DNA from: Streptomyces sp. Ag109_O5-1
GTDB taxonomy: Bacteria; Actinomycetota; Actinomycetes; Streptomycetales; Streptomycetaceae
NCBI RefSeq assembly: GCF_003814875.1
Contig: NZ_RKQF01000001.1
Location: 10,106,001-10,170,000, forward strand
DNA: 64,000 bases
Reading direction: 5' to 3'
This document shows, in pieces, positions 24,385-33,286 of this stretch. Numbering within the stretch: position 1 is the stretch's first letter; each line of letters begins with the position of its first letter. The position numbers and the translations under genes are program-made. The notes under the pieces were generated by a model. It worked only from the letters and a program-made list of their open reading frames with translations. It was not told the origin of the DNA and searched no databases.

Positions 24385-27300
24385 ATGAGTGCCGCCGTGG
24401 AGCCCGCCACGGGCAGGGAGACGGCGGGCCCGATACGCCCGCCCGGCGGCGGGCGACTGACCTGGGTACCGGAGGCCTTCGGGACCTTCTTCGGCGCCCT
24501 CGCCCTGCTGTGCGCCCTGCTCTCCTTCATCGCCCCGCTGCGCGTGCTGCTCCACCCGGTCGTGTACTTCCTCGACGCGGTCGTGGTGCCCGTCAGCCCC
24601 AACCTCGCCTACGCGGTCTTCCTCTTCCTCCTCGGCGGCGCCACCGCCGCCCGCAAGAAGGTCGCCTGGTGGCTGTTGGTGATCTACTTCGGCCTGCTGG
24701 CGCTGGTCGACGTCCTGGCGGTCGCCTTCGGCTTCGACTGGTACTCGTTCAGCTCACTGCTGGTGTGCGGGCTCGCCCTGACCCTGCTGATCGTGGCGAG
24801 ACGGGAGTTCTACGCCGCCTCCCGCCGGGCCGCCGTACGCAGGGCCCTCGCCGTCCTCCTGATCGGCCTGGTGGTGGCGATCCTGGCCGGCTGGGGCCTG
24901 GTCTCGCTCTTCCCCGGCACGCTCCCGCACGGCCAGCACCTGGTCTGGGCGGCCGACCGGGTCTGCGGCGGCCTGGTCCCCGTCCACACCTACGCCGGCC
25001 GCCCGCCCCGCTCCGTCGCCTTCCTCCTCGGCCTCTTCGGCGCCCTCGCGCTGCTCAACGCCGCCGCCACCCTGTTCCGTTCACAACGCCTGGAAGCGGC
25101 CCTGCACGGCGACGAGGAGGCCCGTATCCGCGCCCTTCTCAAGGCCTACGGCGACCGGGACTCCCTCGGCTACTTCGCCACCCGGCGCGACAAGGCCGTG
25201 GTCTTCTCGCCCAGTGGCAAGGCCGCCGTCACCCACCGCGTCGAGGCCGGCGTCTGCCTGGCCAGCGGCGACCCCGTCGGCGACCCGGAGGCCTGGCCGC
25301 ACGCCATCGCCGCCTGGCAGGACGTGGCCCGCCGGCACGCCTGGGTGCCCGCGGTGATGGGCGCCTCCGAGGACGGCGCCAAGGCCTACGTCCGCGCCGG
25401 GCTCGGCGCGCTGCAACTCGGCGACGAGGCGATCCTGCACGTCGCCGACTTCGACCTGGGCGGCCGCGACATGCGGGTCACCCGGCAGGCCGTCAACCGC
25501 GTCCGCCGCACCGGCGCGACCACCAGGGTCCGCCGCCACGCCACCCTCACCGAGACCGAGATGGAGGAGATCGTCGACAAGGCCGACGCCTGGCGCGACA
25601 CCGAGACCGAACGCGGCTTCTCCATGGCCCTGGACCGGCTCGGCGACCCCGCCGACGGCGACTGCCTCCTGGTCGAGGCCATCGCCGAGGACGGCCGGCT
25701 GCTCGCCCTGCTCTCCTTCGTCCCCTGGGGCGGCGACGGCATCTCCCTCGACCTGATGCGCCGTGACCGCGCCGCGCCCAACGGGGTCATGGAGTTCATG
25801 GTCGCCGACCTGTGCGCGGCCGCCCCCAAACTGGGCGTCCACCGCATCTCGCTCAACTTCGCCGTCTTCCGCTCGGTCTTCGAGGAAGGCGCCCGCATCG
25901 GCGCGGGCCCGGTGCTGCGCCTGTGGCGCCGGCTGCTGCTGTTCTTCTCCCGCTGGTGGCAGCTGGAGGCCCTCTACCGCTCCAACGCCAAGTACCACCC
26001 CGAGTGGTACCCGCGCTTCCTCTGCTACGGCGACGCCGGCTCCCTCGCCCGGATCGGCCTCGCCTCCGGAATCGCCGAAGGCTTCGTCCCCGTACCGTCC
26101 CTGCGCAAACTCTGGGGAAAGGGGCACCCGAAGGCGGGACCGCGGCCCGCCGAGGGGCTGCCGTCCCTGCCGGTGCCCGGTCTCGAAGGAGGGGACGAGA
26201 CCGGGCCCGGACCGCCGGGCGCGGGCCTGCCGGACCAGTTCCGGGTGCGCCGGCGCAAGCTCGACCGGCTGCGCGCGGCGGGCGTCGACCCCTACCCGGT
26301 GGCGACCGTCCGGCCCACGCGTGCCCTCGCCGACGTCCGCGACGGCGAGACGGCCACCGTCGCCGGGCGGATCATGCTGGTCCGCGACTTCGGGGGCATC
26401 GTCTTCGTCGTGCTGCGCGACTGGTCCGGCGACCGTCAGCTCGCCCTCACCCGCGACGGGTCGGGACCGGCCCTCGACCGGTTCACCGCGGACACCGACA
26501 TCGGCGACCAGATCACCGCCACCGGCCGGGCCGGCGTCAGCGACCGGGGCGAGCCGACCCTCTTCGTCACCGACTGGCAGCTCACCGCGAAATGCCTGCG
26601 CCCGCTGCCCGACAAGCACCGCGGCCTCACCGACCCCGAGGCCAGGGTCCGCCGCCGCTACCTCGATCTCGCCACCGGTCCCGCCGCCCGCGCCGTCGTC
26701 CGCGCCCGCTCCGCCGCCGTACAGGCGCTGCGCCAGGGCTTGCTCGACCGCGGCTACCTGGAGGTCGAGACCCCGATGCTCCAGCAGATCCACGGCGGCG
26801 CCAACGCCCGCCCCTTCACCACCCACATCAACGCCTACGACCTCGACCTCTATCTCCGCATCGCCCCCGAGCTGTACCTGAAACGACTGTGCGTCGGCGG
26901 TCTGGAGAAGGTCTTCGAACTCGGCCGCACCTTCCGCAACGAGGGTGTCTCCCACAAGCACAACCCCGAGTTCACGATGCTGGAGGCCTACCAGGCGTAC
27001 GCCGACTACGACGTGATGCTCGACCTCGCCCGTGAGCTGATCCAGGGCGCCGCGACCGCCGCCCACGGCTCGCCGGTCGCCCGCAAGGACGGACGGGAGT
27101 ACGACATCTCGGGTGACTGGCCGGTCAAGACGGTGCACGGGGCGATCTCCGAGGTGCTGGGGGAGGAGATCGGCCCCGGCAGCGAGCTGCTCCGGCTGCA
27201 CCGGCACTGCGACCGCGTCGGTGTGCCGTACACCGCCGACGACGGGCCCGGAGACGTCGTACTGGAGATGTACGAGCGGCTGGTCGAGGAGCGCACCCAG

Positions 27301-27657
27301 CTGCCCACCTTCTACAAGGACTTCCCGACCGAGGTCTCCCCGCTCACCCGGCAGCACCGCACCGACCCGCGGCTCGCCGAACGCTGGGACCTGGTCGCCT
27401 TCGGGACCGAACTCGGCACCGCCTACTCCGAACTGACCGACCCCGTCGAACAGCGCCGCCGGCTCACCGCCCAGTCGCTGCTCGCCGCCGGCGGGGACCC
27501 CGAGGCGATGGAGCTCGACGAGGACTTCCTCGCCGCCCTCGAATACGCGATGCCGCCCACCGGCGGGCTCGGCCTCGGCGTCGACCGGCTGGTCATGTTC
27601 CTCACCGGCCTGACGATCCGCGAGACGCTGCCCTTCCCTCTGGTCCGCCGCCGCTGA
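24385..27657 (+). CDS. lysX: bifunctional lysylphosphatidylglycerol synthetase / lysine-tRNA ligase
   Basis: 1090 residues from ATG 24385. The N-terminal ~220 residues hold about six membrane helices. A DUF2156 (MprF-type) aminoacyl-transfer domain spans about 220-560, with VVFSPSGKAAVTHRVEAGVCL and ASGDPVGDPEAW. A lysyl-tRNA synthetase follows: linker and OB-fold (about 610-720), class II motif 2 FRNEGVSHKHNPEFTMLE, and motif 3 GLGLGVDRLVMFLTG. It charges tRNA-Lys and transfers lysine to phosphatidylglycerol in the membrane, reducing surface charge and antimicrobial-peptide binding, as shown for mycobacterial LysX. Full length and all motifs are present. Confidence 0.95.
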   Translation: MSAAVEPATGRETAGPIRPPGGGRLTWVPEAFGTFFGALALLCALLSFIAPLRVLLHPVVYFLDAVVVPVSPNLAYAVFLFLLGGATAARKKVAWWLLVIYFGLLALVDVLAVAFGFDWYSFSSLLVCGLALTLLIVARREFYAASRRAAVRRALAVLLIGLVVAILAGWGLVSLFPGTLPHGQHLVWAADRVCGGLVPVHTYAGRPPRSVAFLLGLFGALALLNAAATLFRSQRLEAALHGDEEARIRALLKAYGDRDSLGYFATRRDKAVVFSPSGKAAVTHRVEAGVCLASGDPVGDPEAWPHAIAAWQDVARRHAWVPAVMGASEDGAKAYVRAGLGALQLGDEAILHVADFDLGGRDMRVTRQAVNRVRRTGATTRVRRHATLTETEMEEIVDKADAWRDTETERGFSMALDRLGDPADGDCLLVEAIAEDGRLLALLSFVPWGGDGISLDLMRRDRAAPNGVMEFMVADLCAAAPKLGVHRISLNFAVFRSVFEEGARIGAGPVLRLWRRLLLFFSRWWQLEALYRSNAKYHPEWYPRFLCYGDAGSLARIGLASGIAEGFVPVPSLRKLWGKGHPKAGPRPAEGLPSLPVPGLEGGDETGPGPPGAGLPDQFRVRRRKLDRLRAAGVDPYPVATVRPTRALADVRDGETATVAGRIMLVRDFGGIVFVVLRDWSGDRQLALTRDGSGPALDRFTADTDIGDQITATGRAGVSDRGEPTLFVTDWQLTAKCLRPLPDKHRGLTDPEARVRRRYLDLATGPAARAVVRARSAAVQALRQGLLDRGYLEVETPMLQQIHGGANARPFTTHINAYDLDLYLRIAPELYLKRLCVGGLEKVFELGRTFRNEGVSHKHNPEFTMLEAYQAYADYDVMLDLARELIQGAATAAHGSPVARKDGREYDISGDWPVKTVHGAISEVLGEEIGPGSELLRLHRHCDRVGVPYTADDGPGDVVLEMYERLVEERTQLPTFYKDFPTEVSPLTRQHRTDPRLAERWDLVAFGTELGTAYSELTDPVEQRRRLTAQSLLAAGGDPEAMELDEDFLAALEYAMPPTGGLGLGVDRLVMFLTGLTIRETLPFPLVRRR

Positions 27658-28807: not shown

Positions 28808-29488
28808 TCAGTGGGCCCCGACCAGGCGGGCGAACACCACGACGTTCCCGTCGTAGCCGTTCTGTTTCGAGAAGCCGCCGCCGCAGGTGATGACCCGCAA
28901 CTCCGGTGTGCCCTTGGAACCGTAGACCCGGTCGCCCGGGAAACCGGCCTTCGCGAAGACCTCGATCCCGTAGATCTCGAAGACCGCGGTCCTGCCGTCC
29001 TTCCGGTCGACCTCGATCTGGTTTCCCTTCTTCAGGGAACCGAGGCCGTAGAACACCGCCGGCCCCTTCGAGTTGTCGACATGGCCGACGACGACCGAGG
29101 TCCCCTTCTCCCCGGGCGAGACGCCCCCGGTGAACCAGCCGGCCAGATTGGGGTCGTCCGGCGGCGGCGCCGCGATCCAGCCGCCCGTGTCCAGCCCCAC
29201 CCCCATCACGGGCGCGTCGACCCGGATCGCGGGAATCCGGATCCGGTCCGCCGCGGCGAACGGCAGTGCGGCGGGCACGGGTGCCGTGGCGAAGGTGTCC
29301 GGAACCGTGGTACGGCTGTCGGGAGCGGCGGCCGAGGCCGGCTGTGGCGGACCGACGTCGAACTCTCCCGAACCGTTCCGAATCAGCGCCAGACCGGTCA
29401 GCAGAACAAGCGCTATCACTCCCCACGGGGCACGCTTCCGCCGCCGCTCCTCCTCTTCGGCCAGCTCGGAAAGTCCGGACGCAGACAT
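28808..29488 (-). CDS. class F sortase
   Basis: 226 residues from ATG 29488, with GGGGA upstream; in-frame sequence further 5' lacks a signal. A charged N-terminus (SELAEEEERRRKRAP) precedes one membrane anchor (WGVIALVLLTGLALI), then the sortase barrel. The catalytic His is in SVVVGHVDNSKGPAVF, the catalytic Cys in ELRVITCGG, and a downstream Arg in VVFARLVG. Class F sortases are typical of actinomycetes and transfer or crosslink surface proteins. The gene is divergent from a Gly-rich secreted protein and lies in a cluster of anchored low-complexity proteins. Confidence 0.93.
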   Translation of the reverse strand: MSASGLSELAEEEERRRKRAPWGVIALVLLTGLALIRNGSGEFDVGPPQPASAAAPDSRTTVPDTFATAPVPAALPFAAADRIRIPAIRVDAPVMGVGLDTGGWIAAPPPDDPNLAGWFTGGVSPGEKGTSVVVGHVDNSKGPAVFYGLGSLKKGNQIEVDRKDGRTAVFEIYGIEVFAKAGFPGDRVYGSKGTPELRVITCGGGFSKQNGYDGNVVVFARLVGAH

Positions 29489-29823
29489 TCGCCATCCCCT
29501 CTCGACGCGGCTGCTCCCATGTCCGTATCGCGCATGGGAAAACGCTAAGTCCCGCGCGCGCGTGCGGCGACGGGGCGACGGGCGAACGGGTGGCCCGAGG
29601 GCATTCCGGTGCGCCATCCGAGTTGCCGTTCGCAGATTTTTTCTGACGGTCCGTGACCTGCGGCAATATCCGATTGTGCGCTTTTCTGACGGCGTGTCTG
29701 ATCACCAGGACGGACCATTCTCGAAATGCGGGCGTGTTCACGGCATCTGAGGGTCTAGTCGGGAGGTGCTTTCTCGCCGATCCACCGGGGACGGTTCCCG
29801 GGGCGCCTTCCGCGGAGGAAGAG
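29489..29823. other. 335-bp divergent intergenic region
   Basis: Lies between the sortase (-) and the Gly-rich protein (+). It is lower in G+C than its surroundings around 29630-29730 and must hold promoters for both genes. GGAGGAAGAG (29814-29823) is the ribosome site of the right-hand gene. I see no open frame with a start and ribosome site, and no strong inverted repeat. Confidence 0.5.
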
Positions 29824-30759
29824 ATGCGAAACTCACGTGCGCTGGCGGCCGCGTGCACAGTGGTCGCCGTTCTCGGTGCCGCCGCCCCCATGGCCGTCGC
29901 CGACGGCCTGGGCAACCCCGGCGGCCCGCCCAATACGCAGGCCCCGGTCGTCGGAGGGGCGGGCGTCGCCCCGGGGACCGGTGTCGGTGGAGTGGGTGGT
30001 GTCGGCGGTGTCGGCGGTGTCGGCGGCTTCGCCGGTGTCGGCGGCATCGGTGGTGTCGCGGTCCCCGGAGTCGTCGTACCCGGGGTCGGGGTGGGCGGGT
30101 TCGGTGGTGACGGGCGTTTCAACAACGGCTACGGCGGGCGGGGCGGTGACGACTTCGGTGGGCGGGGCGGCGAAGGGTTCGGTGGGCGGGGCGGCGAAGG
30201 GTTCGGCGGGCGGGGCGGCGAAGGGTTCGGCGGGCGGGGCGGCGAAGGGTTCGGCGGGCGGGGCGATGACGGGTTCGGCAACGGCTCCCGTGGCCGGGGC
30301 GACGGCGTGCGCAACATCGTCGTGCAGCCCCGCACGGTCGCGGGCGGCGAGGAGGTCGTCGTCACCGTCAACGGCTGCCGAAGGGGCACGATGGTGTCCT
30401 CCGCCTTCGTCGACAGGCCGAGGCTGTTCCCGTTCGGCGGGGACATGGCGCGCGGCTCCGCCAGAATCCGCCGGCACGCCCACCCGGGCCCGTACGACCT
30501 CACCGTCATCTGCGACGACGGCCCGTCCCTGACCCGGCCGTCCGCCTTCACCGTGATCGGCGGGACGGAGGGCAACATGTCCAACGAGATGGACAGCGAC
30601 GACCGCCTCCAGCTCGGCGGGGTGCAGGCCGGGCTCGGCGGCAGCGTGTCCAACGGGGCCACCCCGACCGACATGGCGATCGGCGGCGGGCTGGTGGGCG
30701 CGGCCGTGCTCGCGGGGTGCGGGTTCTGGCTGCGCCGGCGTCACGAGAAGCGGTTCTGA
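29824..30759 (+). CDS. secreted Gly-rich surface protein with C-terminal membrane anchor
   Basis: 311 residues from ATG 29824, behind GGAGGAAGAG. A signal peptide (cleavage near AVADG, residue 27) is followed by a VGG-rich stretch, six tandem 8-residue GGRGGEGF-type repeats (about 104-151), and a folded segment of about 100 residues with two Cys (VVVTVNGCRRG and DLTVICDDG) that looks like an Ig-like beta sandwich. The end is a membrane helix and basic tail (AAVLAGCGFWLRRRHEKRF). The anchor resembles a sortase substrate tail but there is no LPXTG-like motif before it. Adjacent sortase and a similarly built protein downstream suggest a common surface structure. Confidence 0.85.
   Translation: MRNSRALAAACTVVAVLGAAAPMAVADGLGNPGGPPNTQAPVVGGAGVAPGTGVGGVGGVGGVGGVGGFAGVGGIGGVAVPGVVVPGVGVGGFGGDGRFNNGYGGRGGDDFGGRGGEGFGGRGGEGFGGRGGEGFGGRGGEGFGGRGDDGFGNGSRGRGDGVRNIVVQPRTVAGGEEVVVTVNGCRRGTMVSSAFVDRPRLFPFGGDMARGSARIRRHAHPGPYDLTVICDDGPSLTRPSAFTVIGGTEGNMSNEMDSDDRLQLGGVQAGLGGSVSNGATPTDMAIGGGLVGAAVLAGCGFWLRRRHEKRF
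30133..30276 (+). repeat. six 24-bp tandem coding repeats
   Basis: Units start at 30133, 30157, 30181, 30205, 30229 and 30253. The four central units encode GGRGGEGF and are nearly identical in DNA; the first encodes GGRGGDDF and the last GGRGDDGF. All copies keep the frame. Confidence 0.92.
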
Positions 30760-30872
30760 CCATCGCGAGCCCCGCCGCGAGCCGGGGCGCACACGCCGTC
30801 GACGGGTTCTCGCTCCGTTCCCCCGCGGAACCGGGGCGGGAACCCGCGAGGGAATCGGCGGTCGGGGCGCGC

Positions 30873-31649
30873 TCAGGAGCCGTCCTCGCCGGTGTGCCTG
30901 CGTGCGATGCGGTACGCCGTACCGACTGAGCCCACGACGAGCGCCGCACCGAGGCCGATCTCCTTGAGGTCGAACCCGCCGAAGCTGCCGCCCGCACCGG
31001 CCTGGACGCCGTGACTCGGCGGGAGGGGCTGCGGGTTGAGCTCCGCGCCGCTGTCGGTGCCGCCGTCCGTGCGTCCGCCGGTGTGATCGCCGGACCCCGC
31101 GTCCGTGCGACCGTCGGTACGGCCGTCCGTGCCCGAGCCGGTACGGCCGCCCGTGCCCGCCTCGGTACGTCCGGCGGTCTGGTCGGTACGTCCGGCGGTC
31201 TGGTCGTCCGTGCGCCCGGCACCGTTTCCGTCCGTGCGCCCGCCACCGGCTCCGTCCGAACGCCCGGCACCGTTTCCGTCCGAGACGGCCAGTTCGGTCG
31301 ACGCGCTCGCCCCGTCGCAGTTGAACGTCACCCGGTACGACGCCTGCGATCGCGCGTCCCGGTTGACCGTGGCCGTTCCCGAGTCCTGTCCCGCCGGGAT
31401 ACGGACGGTGTCGAACAGGCCCGAGGAGACCGTCGCGGCGCCCCGGCAGCTGTCGTCGCGATTCAGGTGCAGGCTCACCCGGCCGCCCGCCGCGACGGTG
31501 GACGGCGTGACCCGGAATCCGAGGGACGCGCTTTCGCGGCCGGAGTCCTGGCCCCCGTCGTCTCCGTCGTTCGCGAGGATGGCCGGAGCGCAGAGGGCGA
31601 GGGCGCCGACGCCCAGGAGTGCGGCCGAAGCGACGCGTATCGCGCGCAT
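30873..31649 (-). CDS. secreted protein with Ig-like domain, Gly-Arg-Thr-Asp repeats and C-terminal anchor
   Basis: 258 residues from ATG 31649, with GGAGG 8 nt upstream. Signal peptide to about ILAND; an Ig-like domain (residues 40-125) with two Cys (DDSCRGA and VTFNCDGA); a low-complexity region rich in GRTD and DQTAGRT units (about 130-205); then a membrane helix and basic tail (GAALVVGSVGTAYRIARRH). The architecture parallels the Gly-rich protein on the other strand although the repeats differ. No LPXTG motif. A perfect 21-bp tandem duplication (31163-31204) encodes two DQTAGRT units. Confidence 0.82.
   Translation of the reverse strand: MRAIRVASAALLGVGALALCAPAILANDGDDGGQDSGRESASLGFRVTPSTVAAGGRVSLHLNRDDSCRGAATVSSGLFDTVRIPAGQDSGTATVNRDARSQASYRVTFNCDGASASTELAVSDGNGAGRSDGAGGGRTDGNGAGRTDDQTAGRTDQTAGRTEAGTGGRTGSGTDGRTDGRTDAGSGDHTGGRTDGGTDSGAELNPQPLPPSHGVQAGAGGSFGGFDLKEIGLGAALVVGSVGTAYRIARRHTGEDGS
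31163..31204 (-). repeat. perfect 21-bp tandem duplication inside the coding region
   Basis: Bases 31163-31183 are repeated exactly at 31184-31204, giving two in-frame DQTAGRT heptapeptides. Diverged copies of the same theme flank it. Confidence 0.9.
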
Positions 31650-31813
31650 GTGGTTCCTCCGGTCTCCGAGGAGCGGCTTGCGGACCTGTTCCGCCAGTGC
31701 CGGAAATGCACCTCGATGATCGGAACGCTAGGAACACCCGCACATGCGCGCGAACCCAGTAGCGCGAACGGGGGAATCGGGCGGGCCGCCCGGGTGATGC
31801 GGCTACGGCACCC

Positions 31814-31847
31814 GGGGGACATCCGCGGCGCGCCGCCGATGTCCCCC
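31814..31847 (-). terminator. long inverted repeat after the DUF4239 gene
   Basis: GGGGGACATC (31814-31823) pairs perfectly with GATGTCCCCC (31838-31847), and the GC-rich interior is largely self-complementary. It sits 20 bp past the DUF4239 stop in the direction of transcription. Confidence 0.6.
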
Positions 31848-31866
31848 GCGCCGACTCCCGGGAGCC

Positions 31867-32631
31867 CTAGCCCTTGATGTGCGGGAAGAGGGCCAGGAAG
31901 GGCTGCGACGTCGCCGTGATACCCCGGCTGTAGGGCTCGTCGAAGTCCCAGATCAGGTACAGCATGAACGCGATGGTCGCGGAGAACAGCCCCGCCAGGA
32001 TCAACTCCCGGCGGGTGCGCCTGATCTGCAGCGCGAAGACCATGCCGATGGTGATCGCGGCTCCGGTCAGCAGTCCGAACCACACCACGTTCGGCATGGT
32101 CGCCCCGGTCGAGTCGGCGCGGGCGCTGCGCGCCTGGTCGACGGCGGCCACCTGGTCCACCAGCGGCTGGTAGGCCTGCGCCTGGAAGTCGGTCTTCGGC
32201 TGGTAGTCGGTCACGTCCTGACGGATCTTCGCGAGCAGGTCGGCACCCTGCTGCGTGAGGTGCCCCTTCTGGGACATCACCTTCCACTCCTTGCCGACGA
32301 CCTGTCCGGCGTAGGCGTCGACGTCCGCCCGGATTCGGTCGCGGACGTCCGGCGGGTACACCCGCACCCGCTCATGGATCTCGTGCAGTGCCTGCGCCTC
32401 CGCCTGCACATGGTCCTGGGCGGCGCTGCGGGCCTCCCACACCCCGGCCACCGCCAGACCGAGGACGATGGCGTAGATGACGCCGATCCACATGGTCATG
32501 TACTCGATGACGTCCGGCGTCTCGGAGGGATCCTCGTCCTCCGCCGCCCTCTTGTCACGTACGAGGGTGATGACGAGCACCACGGCGACGGCCGCGAGCA
32601 TCGCGAGGACGAGAACAAGCCAATCCGGCAA
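31867..32631 (-). CDS. DUF4239 (bestrophin-like) membrane protein
   Basis: 254 residues from ATG 32631. An N-terminal helix (LVLVLAMLAAVAVVLVITLV), a second helix around residues 48-66 (IGVIYAIVLGLAVAGVW), a long soluble helical region (70-175) rich in charged residues, then two further helices (LTGAAITIGMVFAL and LILAGLFSATIAFMLYLI). This matches DUF4239 proteins, which have a bestrophin-like layout; function is not established. It follows the Pro-rich protein gene at 31 bp on the same strand, so the two are probably cotranscribed. Confidence 0.82.
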   Translation of the reverse strand: MPDWLVLVLAMLAAVAVVLVITLVRDKRAAEDEDPSETPDVIEYMTMWIGVIYAIVLGLAVAGVWEARSAAQDHVQAEAQALHEIHERVRVYPPDVRDRIRADVDAYAGQVVGKEWKVMSQKGHLTQQGADLLAKIRQDVTDYQPKTDFQAQAYQPLVDQVAAVDQARSARADSTGATMPNVVWFGLLTGAAITIGMVFALQIRRTRRELILAGLFSATIAFMLYLIWDFDEPYSRGITATSQPFLALFPHIKG

Positions 32632-32662
32632 CGGAAGCCTCCAGAAATCAGTGGGCCGGCCG

Positions 32663-33286
32663 TCAGCGCGCGCGGAACGCGGCGACGGCGATGATCGCGG
32701 GTACGGCGATGAGCAGGACGTAGGTGACCGGGGAGGTGCGGTTCGGGGCCGCCGCGCCGGTCGACTGGACGTGGTACGGCGGGTAGGTCACCGGGGTCGG
32801 TGAGGGCCGCGGCTTCGGCTTGGGCGACGGGGTGGGTGTGGGCACCGGCCTGGGCTTGGGAGCCGGCGGCGGGGTGGGCGCGGGCTTGGGGGCCGGTGCT
32901 CGCCTGGGCGGCGGTGGCGCCGGCTTCGGCGGTGGCGGGGCCGGCTTCGGCGAGGGTTTGGGTGTCGGCTTCGGCGTAGGGGTGGGTTTCGGTGGTGGCG
33001 GCGGTGGTGGCGTGGGCGTCGGGGTGGGTGTGGGGCAGGGCGGCGGCGTGGGGGGCGGGCACAGGGGAGTGGGCCAGGAGTCGCCGACGACGGCCACGGC
33101 CTGGACGTCGCCGGCCACGGCCACGGCCTGTATGCCGGCAGGGCCCGTCGAGGCGTAGGCGCAGGCGTCGGCCGAGGCCGTGCCGACCGGGCAGCCCACC
33201 AGGGCCCACACCAACGTCACCAGGGCCAACGCCCGCGGGACGGGCGTGAGTCGGGTCACTTCGGGTGCATGCACGAGCGAGATCAT
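32663..33286 (-). CDS. secreted Pro-rich protein with C-terminal membrane anchor
   Basis: 207 residues from ATG 33286; the ribosome site is weak. Signal peptide (LALVTLVWALVGCPVGTASA), a short segment with two Cys (DACAY and TPLCPPP), then about 90 residues of Pro/Thr/Lys repeats (PTPTP, PPPPKPTP, KPSPKP), and a final membrane helix (VTYVLLIAVPAIIAVAAF) with a very short basic tail. Such stretches span the cell wall. No LPXTG is seen; VQSTGAAAP precedes the helix. It belongs to the same group of anchored low-complexity proteins near the sortase. Confidence 0.75.
   Translation of the reverse strand: MISLVHAPEVTRLTPVPRALALVTLVWALVGCPVGTASADACAYASTGPAGIQAVAVAGDVQAVAVVGDSWPTPLCPPPTPPPCPTPTPTPTPPPPPPPKPTPTPKPTPKPSPKPAPPPPKPAPPPPRRAPAPKPAPTPPPAPKPRPVPTPTPSPKPKPRPSPTPVTYPPYHVQSTGAAAPNRTSPVTYVLLIAVPAIIAVAAFRAR

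Follow-up and report, generated by a model that had tools for sequence, protein, structure and literature searches.

The locus described here lies within a 64,000-nucleotide stretch of DNA from Streptomyces sp. Ag109_O5-1 (hereafter the window, meaning the whole stretch analysed), which covers 10.106–10.170 Mb of contig 1 in a genome of 12.0 Mb. It centres on a gene for a class F sortase (SrtF; 28808..29494, minus strand), whose start was placed at position 29494, with a further ATG upstream at 29617. Alignments of SrtF with its best relatives begin at the first or second residue of the chosen start, and the best 80 named relatives are all from Streptomyces. Divergent from the sortase gene is that for a Gly-rich secreted protein (29824..30759, plus strand), and beyond it lies the gene for a GRTD-rich secreted protein (30873..31649, minus strand); these are treated here as putative SrtF substrates 1 and 2, respectively. 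The Gly-rich protein ends in GVQAGLGGS, a helix and RRRHEKR (proposed sorting motif at 30619..30645, helix and basic tail at 30673..30756, both plus strand), and the GRTD-rich protein in GVQAGAGGS, a helix and ARRH (30984..31010 and 30876..30959, respectively, both minus strand). The two tails start ~1.1 and ~1.4 kb from their class F sortase.

The assignment of the enzyme to class F, made in an earlier reading of the window from its letters alone (the sequence-only reading), was borne out by model NF033748, against which SrtF scored 205.9 bits, exceeding the curated cut-off of 166; membership is set by this score and not by the Arg residue discussed below. The Pfam Sortase family PF04203 also matched (E 5e-23). 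The catalytic His (GHVDN) and Cys (ITCGG) are present and are both invariant among 33 aligned class F domains, and a simple pattern found both residues in 168 of 171 class F domains, the His pattern being absent in the other three. Alignment by eye with two further sortases from this genome, with the last strand reading ...GNVVVFARL in SrtF vs ...HRLIVWAHL and ...YRMAVWGKL, placed Asn at the position of the catalytic Arg. Among the 171 domains, this position is occupied by Asn in 159 and by Ser in three, and was unparsed in nine, eight of which carry Asn by eye. Judged from these alignments, nearly all class F domains appear to have Asn instead of the sortase-triad Arg; if so, the class would have an altered oxyanion or substrate-binding residue. 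No class F chain turned up by name in a sequence search of the PDB, and the structure of the sortase alone was predicted with a mean predicted local distance difference test (pLDDT) score of 41. The genome encodes 11 sortases, five of class F and six others, two of which look class E-like by eye. When 25 genomes of the genus were searched, 132 domains matched the class F model, with none in one genome.

Three proteins near SrtF—the Gly-rich, the GRTD-rich and a Pro-rich one (32663..33286, minus strand)—have signal-peptide-like N-termini, as judged by eye, and a C-terminal hydrophobic helix. The sequence-only reading had described all three as secreted neighbours with such a helix followed by basic residues, which holds for the Gly-rich and GRTD-rich proteins, the basic tail of the Pro-rich protein, which ends in 'FRAR', being weak. 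That reading had also noted the lack of a known sorting pentapeptide, and none of the three has an LPXTG- or LAXTG-like sequence among its C-terminal 80 residues. What it missed is GVQAG-x-GGS, which stands directly before the anchor helix in both the Gly-rich and the GRTD-rich protein. The coding pattern VQAGxGG has 16 matches in the 12-Mb genome, among which, when read in the motif frame, only the two in the window are C-terminal tails with a helix and basic residues. The proposal of a recognition sequence other than the known ones is thereby supported for these two proteins; the Pro-rich protein was rejected as a sortase substrate because it has no motif.

Among 60 fetched loci of the nearest sortases, a relaxed pattern found at least one tail in 58 and two or more in 44, a count that may include two spurious tails (L068:3213 and L106:10561); the same two loci hold real tails, so the figure of 58 is unaffected. 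An opposite-strand "PPTGGLG" was discarded as a false positive, being the end of a neighbouring lysyl-tRNA-synthetase-like gene with no anchor. With a pattern requiring Gly at P1' and Thr, Ala or Gly at P1, 80 named Streptomyces loci yielded a Gly-type tail in 76, a GRTD-type tail in 55, both in 53 and none in two, which leaves 78 with at least one. Such patterns preset most motif letters, and the information content was recomputed on rows picked by the helix alone. In 68 GRTD-type tails picked in this way, the motif carries 3.57 bits per position and the linker ahead of it 0.95; P1 is Ala in 65 of the tails, P1' is Gly in 66, and the x position has 2.13 bits. The motif is also kept in 56 Gly-type tails, averaging 3.88 bits per position, with Gly at P1 in 53 and at P1' in all 56; here, the positions before the motif, which include part of the Ig-like module described below, already average 2.01 bits. 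Most Gly-type orthologues read GVRGG. A conserved short motif ahead of the helix, which the sequence-only reading had proposed seeking across homologues, is clear for two of the three proteins and absent from the Pro-rich one.

Independent evidence was provided by the NCBIfam model NF058571, the "GVDTG sorting domain", which was curated independently of these data. In the 25 genomes of the genus, it gave 34 matches over cut-off. For 28 of these, a class F sortase was no more than 3 kb away, and 27 of the 28 lay upstream and on the same strand, with a chance expectation of ~0.4%. Across the class, 148 genomes were sampled, 75 of which carry class F. At E ≤3e-5, the model matched in 43 of these 75 vs none of the 73 without class F (Fisher 5e-17, uncorrected for kinship; only part of the candidates was scored in some genomes, and absences are not absolute), and at least 38 of the 47 matches over cut-off were located within 3 kb of a class F sortase. 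It is by genome comparison that class F is here linked to this type of signal; a curated database model for related tails existed already.

As judged from the name of the model and the relatives found, the window tails resemble NF058571 members in that G-V-x-x-G precedes a helix and a basic tail at the C-terminus, and differ from them in having Ala or Gly at P1 instead of Thr. In a set of 49 tails compiled here, 43 match the model at E ≤10 (best, 5e-8). The Gly-rich tail stayed below the cut-off of 29, with 24.3 bits as an isolated sequence and 25.1 when the genome was searched, and the GRTD-rich tail is not among the six listed of the seven own-genome matches; the window tails are therefore not filed as members of NF058571, and from their likeness in look we infer a likeness in function. 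The LPXTG model TIGR01167 gave 16.4 bits for the isolated Gly-rich tail, over its cut-off of 15.9, through only positions 11–34 of its 34; the matched stretch is taken to lie past the pentapeptide, and the tail is not counted as LPXTG.

A tail model of our own, built from the 49 tails, gave 52 matches at E <1e-10 in the 25 genomes, and for 47 a class F sortase was no more than 3 kb away. Because such neighbours had served to train the model, this co-location is circular and is not counted as proof, NF058571 being used instead. No match was present within 3 kb of 85 of the 132 class F sortases, and 40 of these 85 loci were fetched and inspected by eye, which revealed a variant tail in 29 (GVPAGGGG, PVGAGGGG, GMHTGGGG, GVHTGGGA, PVHAGGGG, GPPAGGGG, GVETGGG and others). 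Elsewhere in the genus and in further families, class F sortases adjoin variants such as HVRTGVGG, GMHTGGGG, PVHAGGGG, GAATGGGG and HPETGGGA, with GAATGGGG, HPPTGLGG, HPETGGGA, GVDTGLGG, GMQTGGGG and similar tails in other families of the class. Some relatives have P-x-T-G exactly (HPETG, HPPTG) and others V-x-T-G (HVRTG), forming a continuous series to GVQAG and GVRGG. On sequence grounds, the general form would read [GHP]-[VAPM]-x-[TAG]-G-x-G, retaining the spacing of LPxTG and not its Leu. Each of the five class F sortases in the own genome adjoins a protein with such a tail, four of them clearly, the tail beside L116 (APDTG type) being ambiguous. L116, L189 and L191 represent a class F paralogue type located beside the tails VPAGAPDTG, VPSGAPDTG or VPRGGAGTG, in which the signal may be either VPxG or the LPXTG-like APDTG.

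Anchored tails up to 1.5 kb from a class F sortase fit [VAMPI]x[TAG]Gx[GA][GAST] in 34 of 40 non-redundant cases vs none of 23 controls; this pattern was picked after the data had been seen, its P value is descriptive only, and both sets retain some wrong reading frames. The controls were drawn from 400 kb taken at round coordinates in five genomes, from three sortase regions of the own genome (44 kb) and from tails more than 3 kb from the sortase in near loci. A first control set was dropped as contaminated, L135-L154 having been picked by the tail model. In a tree of 98 of 186 sortases—excluding domains shorter than 140 residues, those with no same-strand motif tail and near-copies above 88%, with seven motif labels assigned by hand and five loci given no label—the P1 residue (Thr, Ala or Gly) follows the sortases with 10 changes vs 40.5 in shuffled labels. 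The x position shows 33 changes on the same tree (unshuffled count). Separately, an orphan anchored family with the tail GVMGG[LV]GG...[RK]RxxxPYRL was observed in five genomes (L151, at G000:C1:747219, L140, L143, L146 and L150), at least 44 kb from any class F sortase; its members are possible in-trans substrates. A further class F locus (L159:5995-7290) holds a LAETG-type protein, and no motif tail was found nearby.

The Ig-like two-Cys modules of the Gly-rich protein (30310..30561, plus strand) and the GRTD-rich protein (31275..31520, minus strand) are homologous (hhalign probability 99%, E 2.3e-18), in keeping with the module that the sequence-only reading had seen in two of the proteins. 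The AlphaFold2 model of the GRTD-rich module is all-beta, an eight-strand sandwich with a mean pLDDT of 90. Against the PDB, Foldseek gave weak similarity only (best E 1.8e-3, none <0.001), and VIA-align yielded Z scores up to 9.1, its rows including domains of PKD, Ig and FN3 type. The fold is a common one, and similarity of this kind may mean no more than a shared arrangement. In combining the module with low-complexity stretches and an anchor, the two proteins are built like a surface spacer or adhesin.

Gene content around the sortase was surveyed by tblastn in 27 loci of the orthologue clade longer than 14 kb, genes beyond the fetched stretch being possible. The sortase and the Gly-rich gene were found in all 27, a polysaccharide deacetylase in 26, the GRTD-rich gene in 25, the bestrophin-like and SCO0930 lipoprotein genes in 24 each, a lysyl-tRNA-synthetase-like gene in 18 and the Pro-rich gene in 12; with the Gly and GRTD modules homologous, some matches may be crossed, and in two loci the GRTD match was on the wrong strand. 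Gene order is mostly kept across the clade, with the sortase, Gly-rich and GRTD-rich genes as its core. The bestrophin-like membrane protein (31867..32631, minus strand; PF14023, 199 bits) is a conserved neighbour for which no part in the sorting mechanism is claimed, and the gene for the SCO0930-family lipoprotein is listed after that of the Pro-rich protein. The latter returned no family match in profile searches; its motif-free ending recurs in relatives as SPVTYVLLI.VPA..AVAALRPR, and a loose pattern found a similar ending in 64 of the 80 named loci. At 24385-27657 of the window, a 1090-residue protein has, by eye, many membrane helices in its N-terminal half and a C-terminal half resembling class II lysyl-tRNA synthetase; this is the neighbour present in 18 of the 27 loci.

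We consider it likely that the locus is a dedicated sortase-substrate module, in which the Gly-rich and GRTD-rich proteins are recognised by the adjoining class F sortase through a divergent GVDTG-type signal; with variants also present next to class F sortases in other actinobacteria, GV-x-AG-x-GGS is probably the tag by which these little-studied enzymes recognise wall-bound proteins. The two proteins would be secreted and then held by their C-terminal helix, and SrtF would recognise GVxAGxGG[ST] rather than LPxTG. G-V-x-A-G has the spacing of L-P-x-T-G, to which it would correspond, with a variable third position in both and Gly at P1', and because of this match the cut is predicted to fall most likely between A and G, before the P1' Gly. 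The new C-terminus would be joined to a cell-wall amine, leaving the Ig-like domain and the low-complexity stretches displayed on the wall. The alternative offered by the sequence-only reading, that the proteins form a wall-spanning structure on their own, found no support in the analyses run.

Among known systems, Streptomyces coelicolor SrtE1 and SrtE2 (class E, LAXTG) are likewise actinobacterial sortases with a signal that is non-canonical at P3; class E signals keep Leu at P4 and Thr at P1, whereas the window signal has Gly at P4 and Ala or Gly at P1. Sorting signals are given for classes A–E, and none for F, in the excerpted text of PMC5148588. Actinoplanes missouriensis presents a closer likeness, its SrtF1 and SrtF4 lying beside secreted, helix-anchored and basic-tailed proteins with no known pentapeptide, AMIS_11010 and AMIS_36440, which the excerpt available from PMC13251363 (2026) proposes as possible substrates; as far as that excerpt goes, no motif was recognised in these neighbours and the proteins were left unstudied. 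The same May 2026 paper, in its available portion, states that the physiological roles of class F are unknown and selects candidate substrates by LPXTG-like motifs only. Because NF058571, of which the window tails are sub-threshold relatives, and the motif-less Actinoplanes neighbours in that portion of PMC13251363 precede this work, calling the system undescribed, as the sequence-only reading did, is too strong. No motif string was found in open-library papers, and none of these papers describes the signal, as judged by title and abstract, with the subscription literature mostly outside this scope.

Several observations weigh against recognition of these tails by class F enzymes. With automatic filters, a fitting tail was found in just 75 of 112 class F loci and a same-strand tail for 126 of 186 sortases; among the 40 model-negative loci inspected by eye, eight lacked a motif tail and three were ambiguous, and several loci of other families show no such tail. 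Moreover, 6 of the 34 NF058571 matches over cut-off in the genus are far from any class F sortase, and 32 of the 75 class F genomes have no match to this model at E 3e-5. The clustering of P1 on the tree would be expected from simple co-inheritance too, and is consistent with recognition rather than proof of it. To our knowledge, a Gly at P1, as in the GVRGG of most Gly-type orthologues, is without precedent. Finally, the Cutibacterium acnes enzyme—of the same class by name and the one reported as studied—is said to take LPXTG in the accessible part of PMC13257024, in which respect it differs from SrtF as read here, and deletion of all four Actinoplanes class F sortases gave no phenotype in the sporangium assays, according to the excerpt of PMC13251363.

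The motif could instead be a hinge at the membrane interface and no cleavage signal, with the proteins remaining helix-anchored and the neighbouring sortase acting on something else. Gly-rich stretches ahead of helices are unremarkable in such genomes, and the motif is conserved jointly with the helix. Against this, the motif accompanies several class F paralogues, each time on another protein body and helix, fits none of the 23 control anchored tails and, as NF058571 at E 3e-5, is found in none of the 73 sampled genomes without class F; we regard a hinge as unlikely. Less probable still is a role of the class F sortase as a polymerase or pairing enzyme, which would link the GVxGG- and GVxAG-type substrates into a pilus-like or cross-linked fibre and not only to peptidoglycan: in 53 of the 80 named loci a sortase is flanked by substrates of both tail subtypes, and both bodies have the Ig-like module, whereas inspection by eye revealed no pilin motif, SrtF is the only sortase in this neighbourhood, and a single same-strand substrate is seen at many class F loci elsewhere.

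It is very improbable that anchoring of the two proteins is due to other, class E-like sortases, with the class F gene as a mere genomic neighbour. The genome does have six sortases outside class F, including the two that look class E-like, and class E is reported to accept a residue other than Pro at P3 (LAXTG) in the excerpted text of PMC5148588. The model for LAXTG substrates of class E, NF041528, gave eight own-genome matches, seven of them over cut-off and none in this locus; these LAETG-type tails lie elsewhere and have a different motif, as expected if non-class-F sortases serve them, and GVDTG-type tails track class F both by gene and by genome. LPXTG-type substrates elsewhere in the genome had been named by the sequence-only reading as a point that would count against its proposal. 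The seven LAETG-type tails are of this kind and are weak as a refutation, because the genome has 11 sortases, five of them class F, and the others can account for such tails.

Regarding the role of the putative sortase-mediated display of the two proteins, SCO0930 and SCO0932 appear in a table of transcripts across mycelial stages in the available part of PMC3610822. As a guess by gene order from the SCO0930 lipoprotein, SCO0934 may be the orthologue of the Gly-rich protein; if this were true, it would point to the wall of aerial hyphae or spores, and SrtF may then act at the hyphal or spore surface. We see about even chances for a broader proposal, according to which actinobacterial class F enzymes as a group would use the Leu-less signal [GHP]-[VAPM]-x-[TAG]-G-x-G, with one or two substrates per paralogue, ~five parallel and insulated anchoring lines per Streptomyces cell, and Asn in place of the sortase Arg. 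Class F is the sortase class for which neither a signal nor a role has been agreed, and a defined signal would provide substrate lists in many genomes and would explain why searches for LPXTG beside class F enzymes come back empty. If the paralogues are mutually exclusive, they may constitute new orthogonal ligases for protein engineering.

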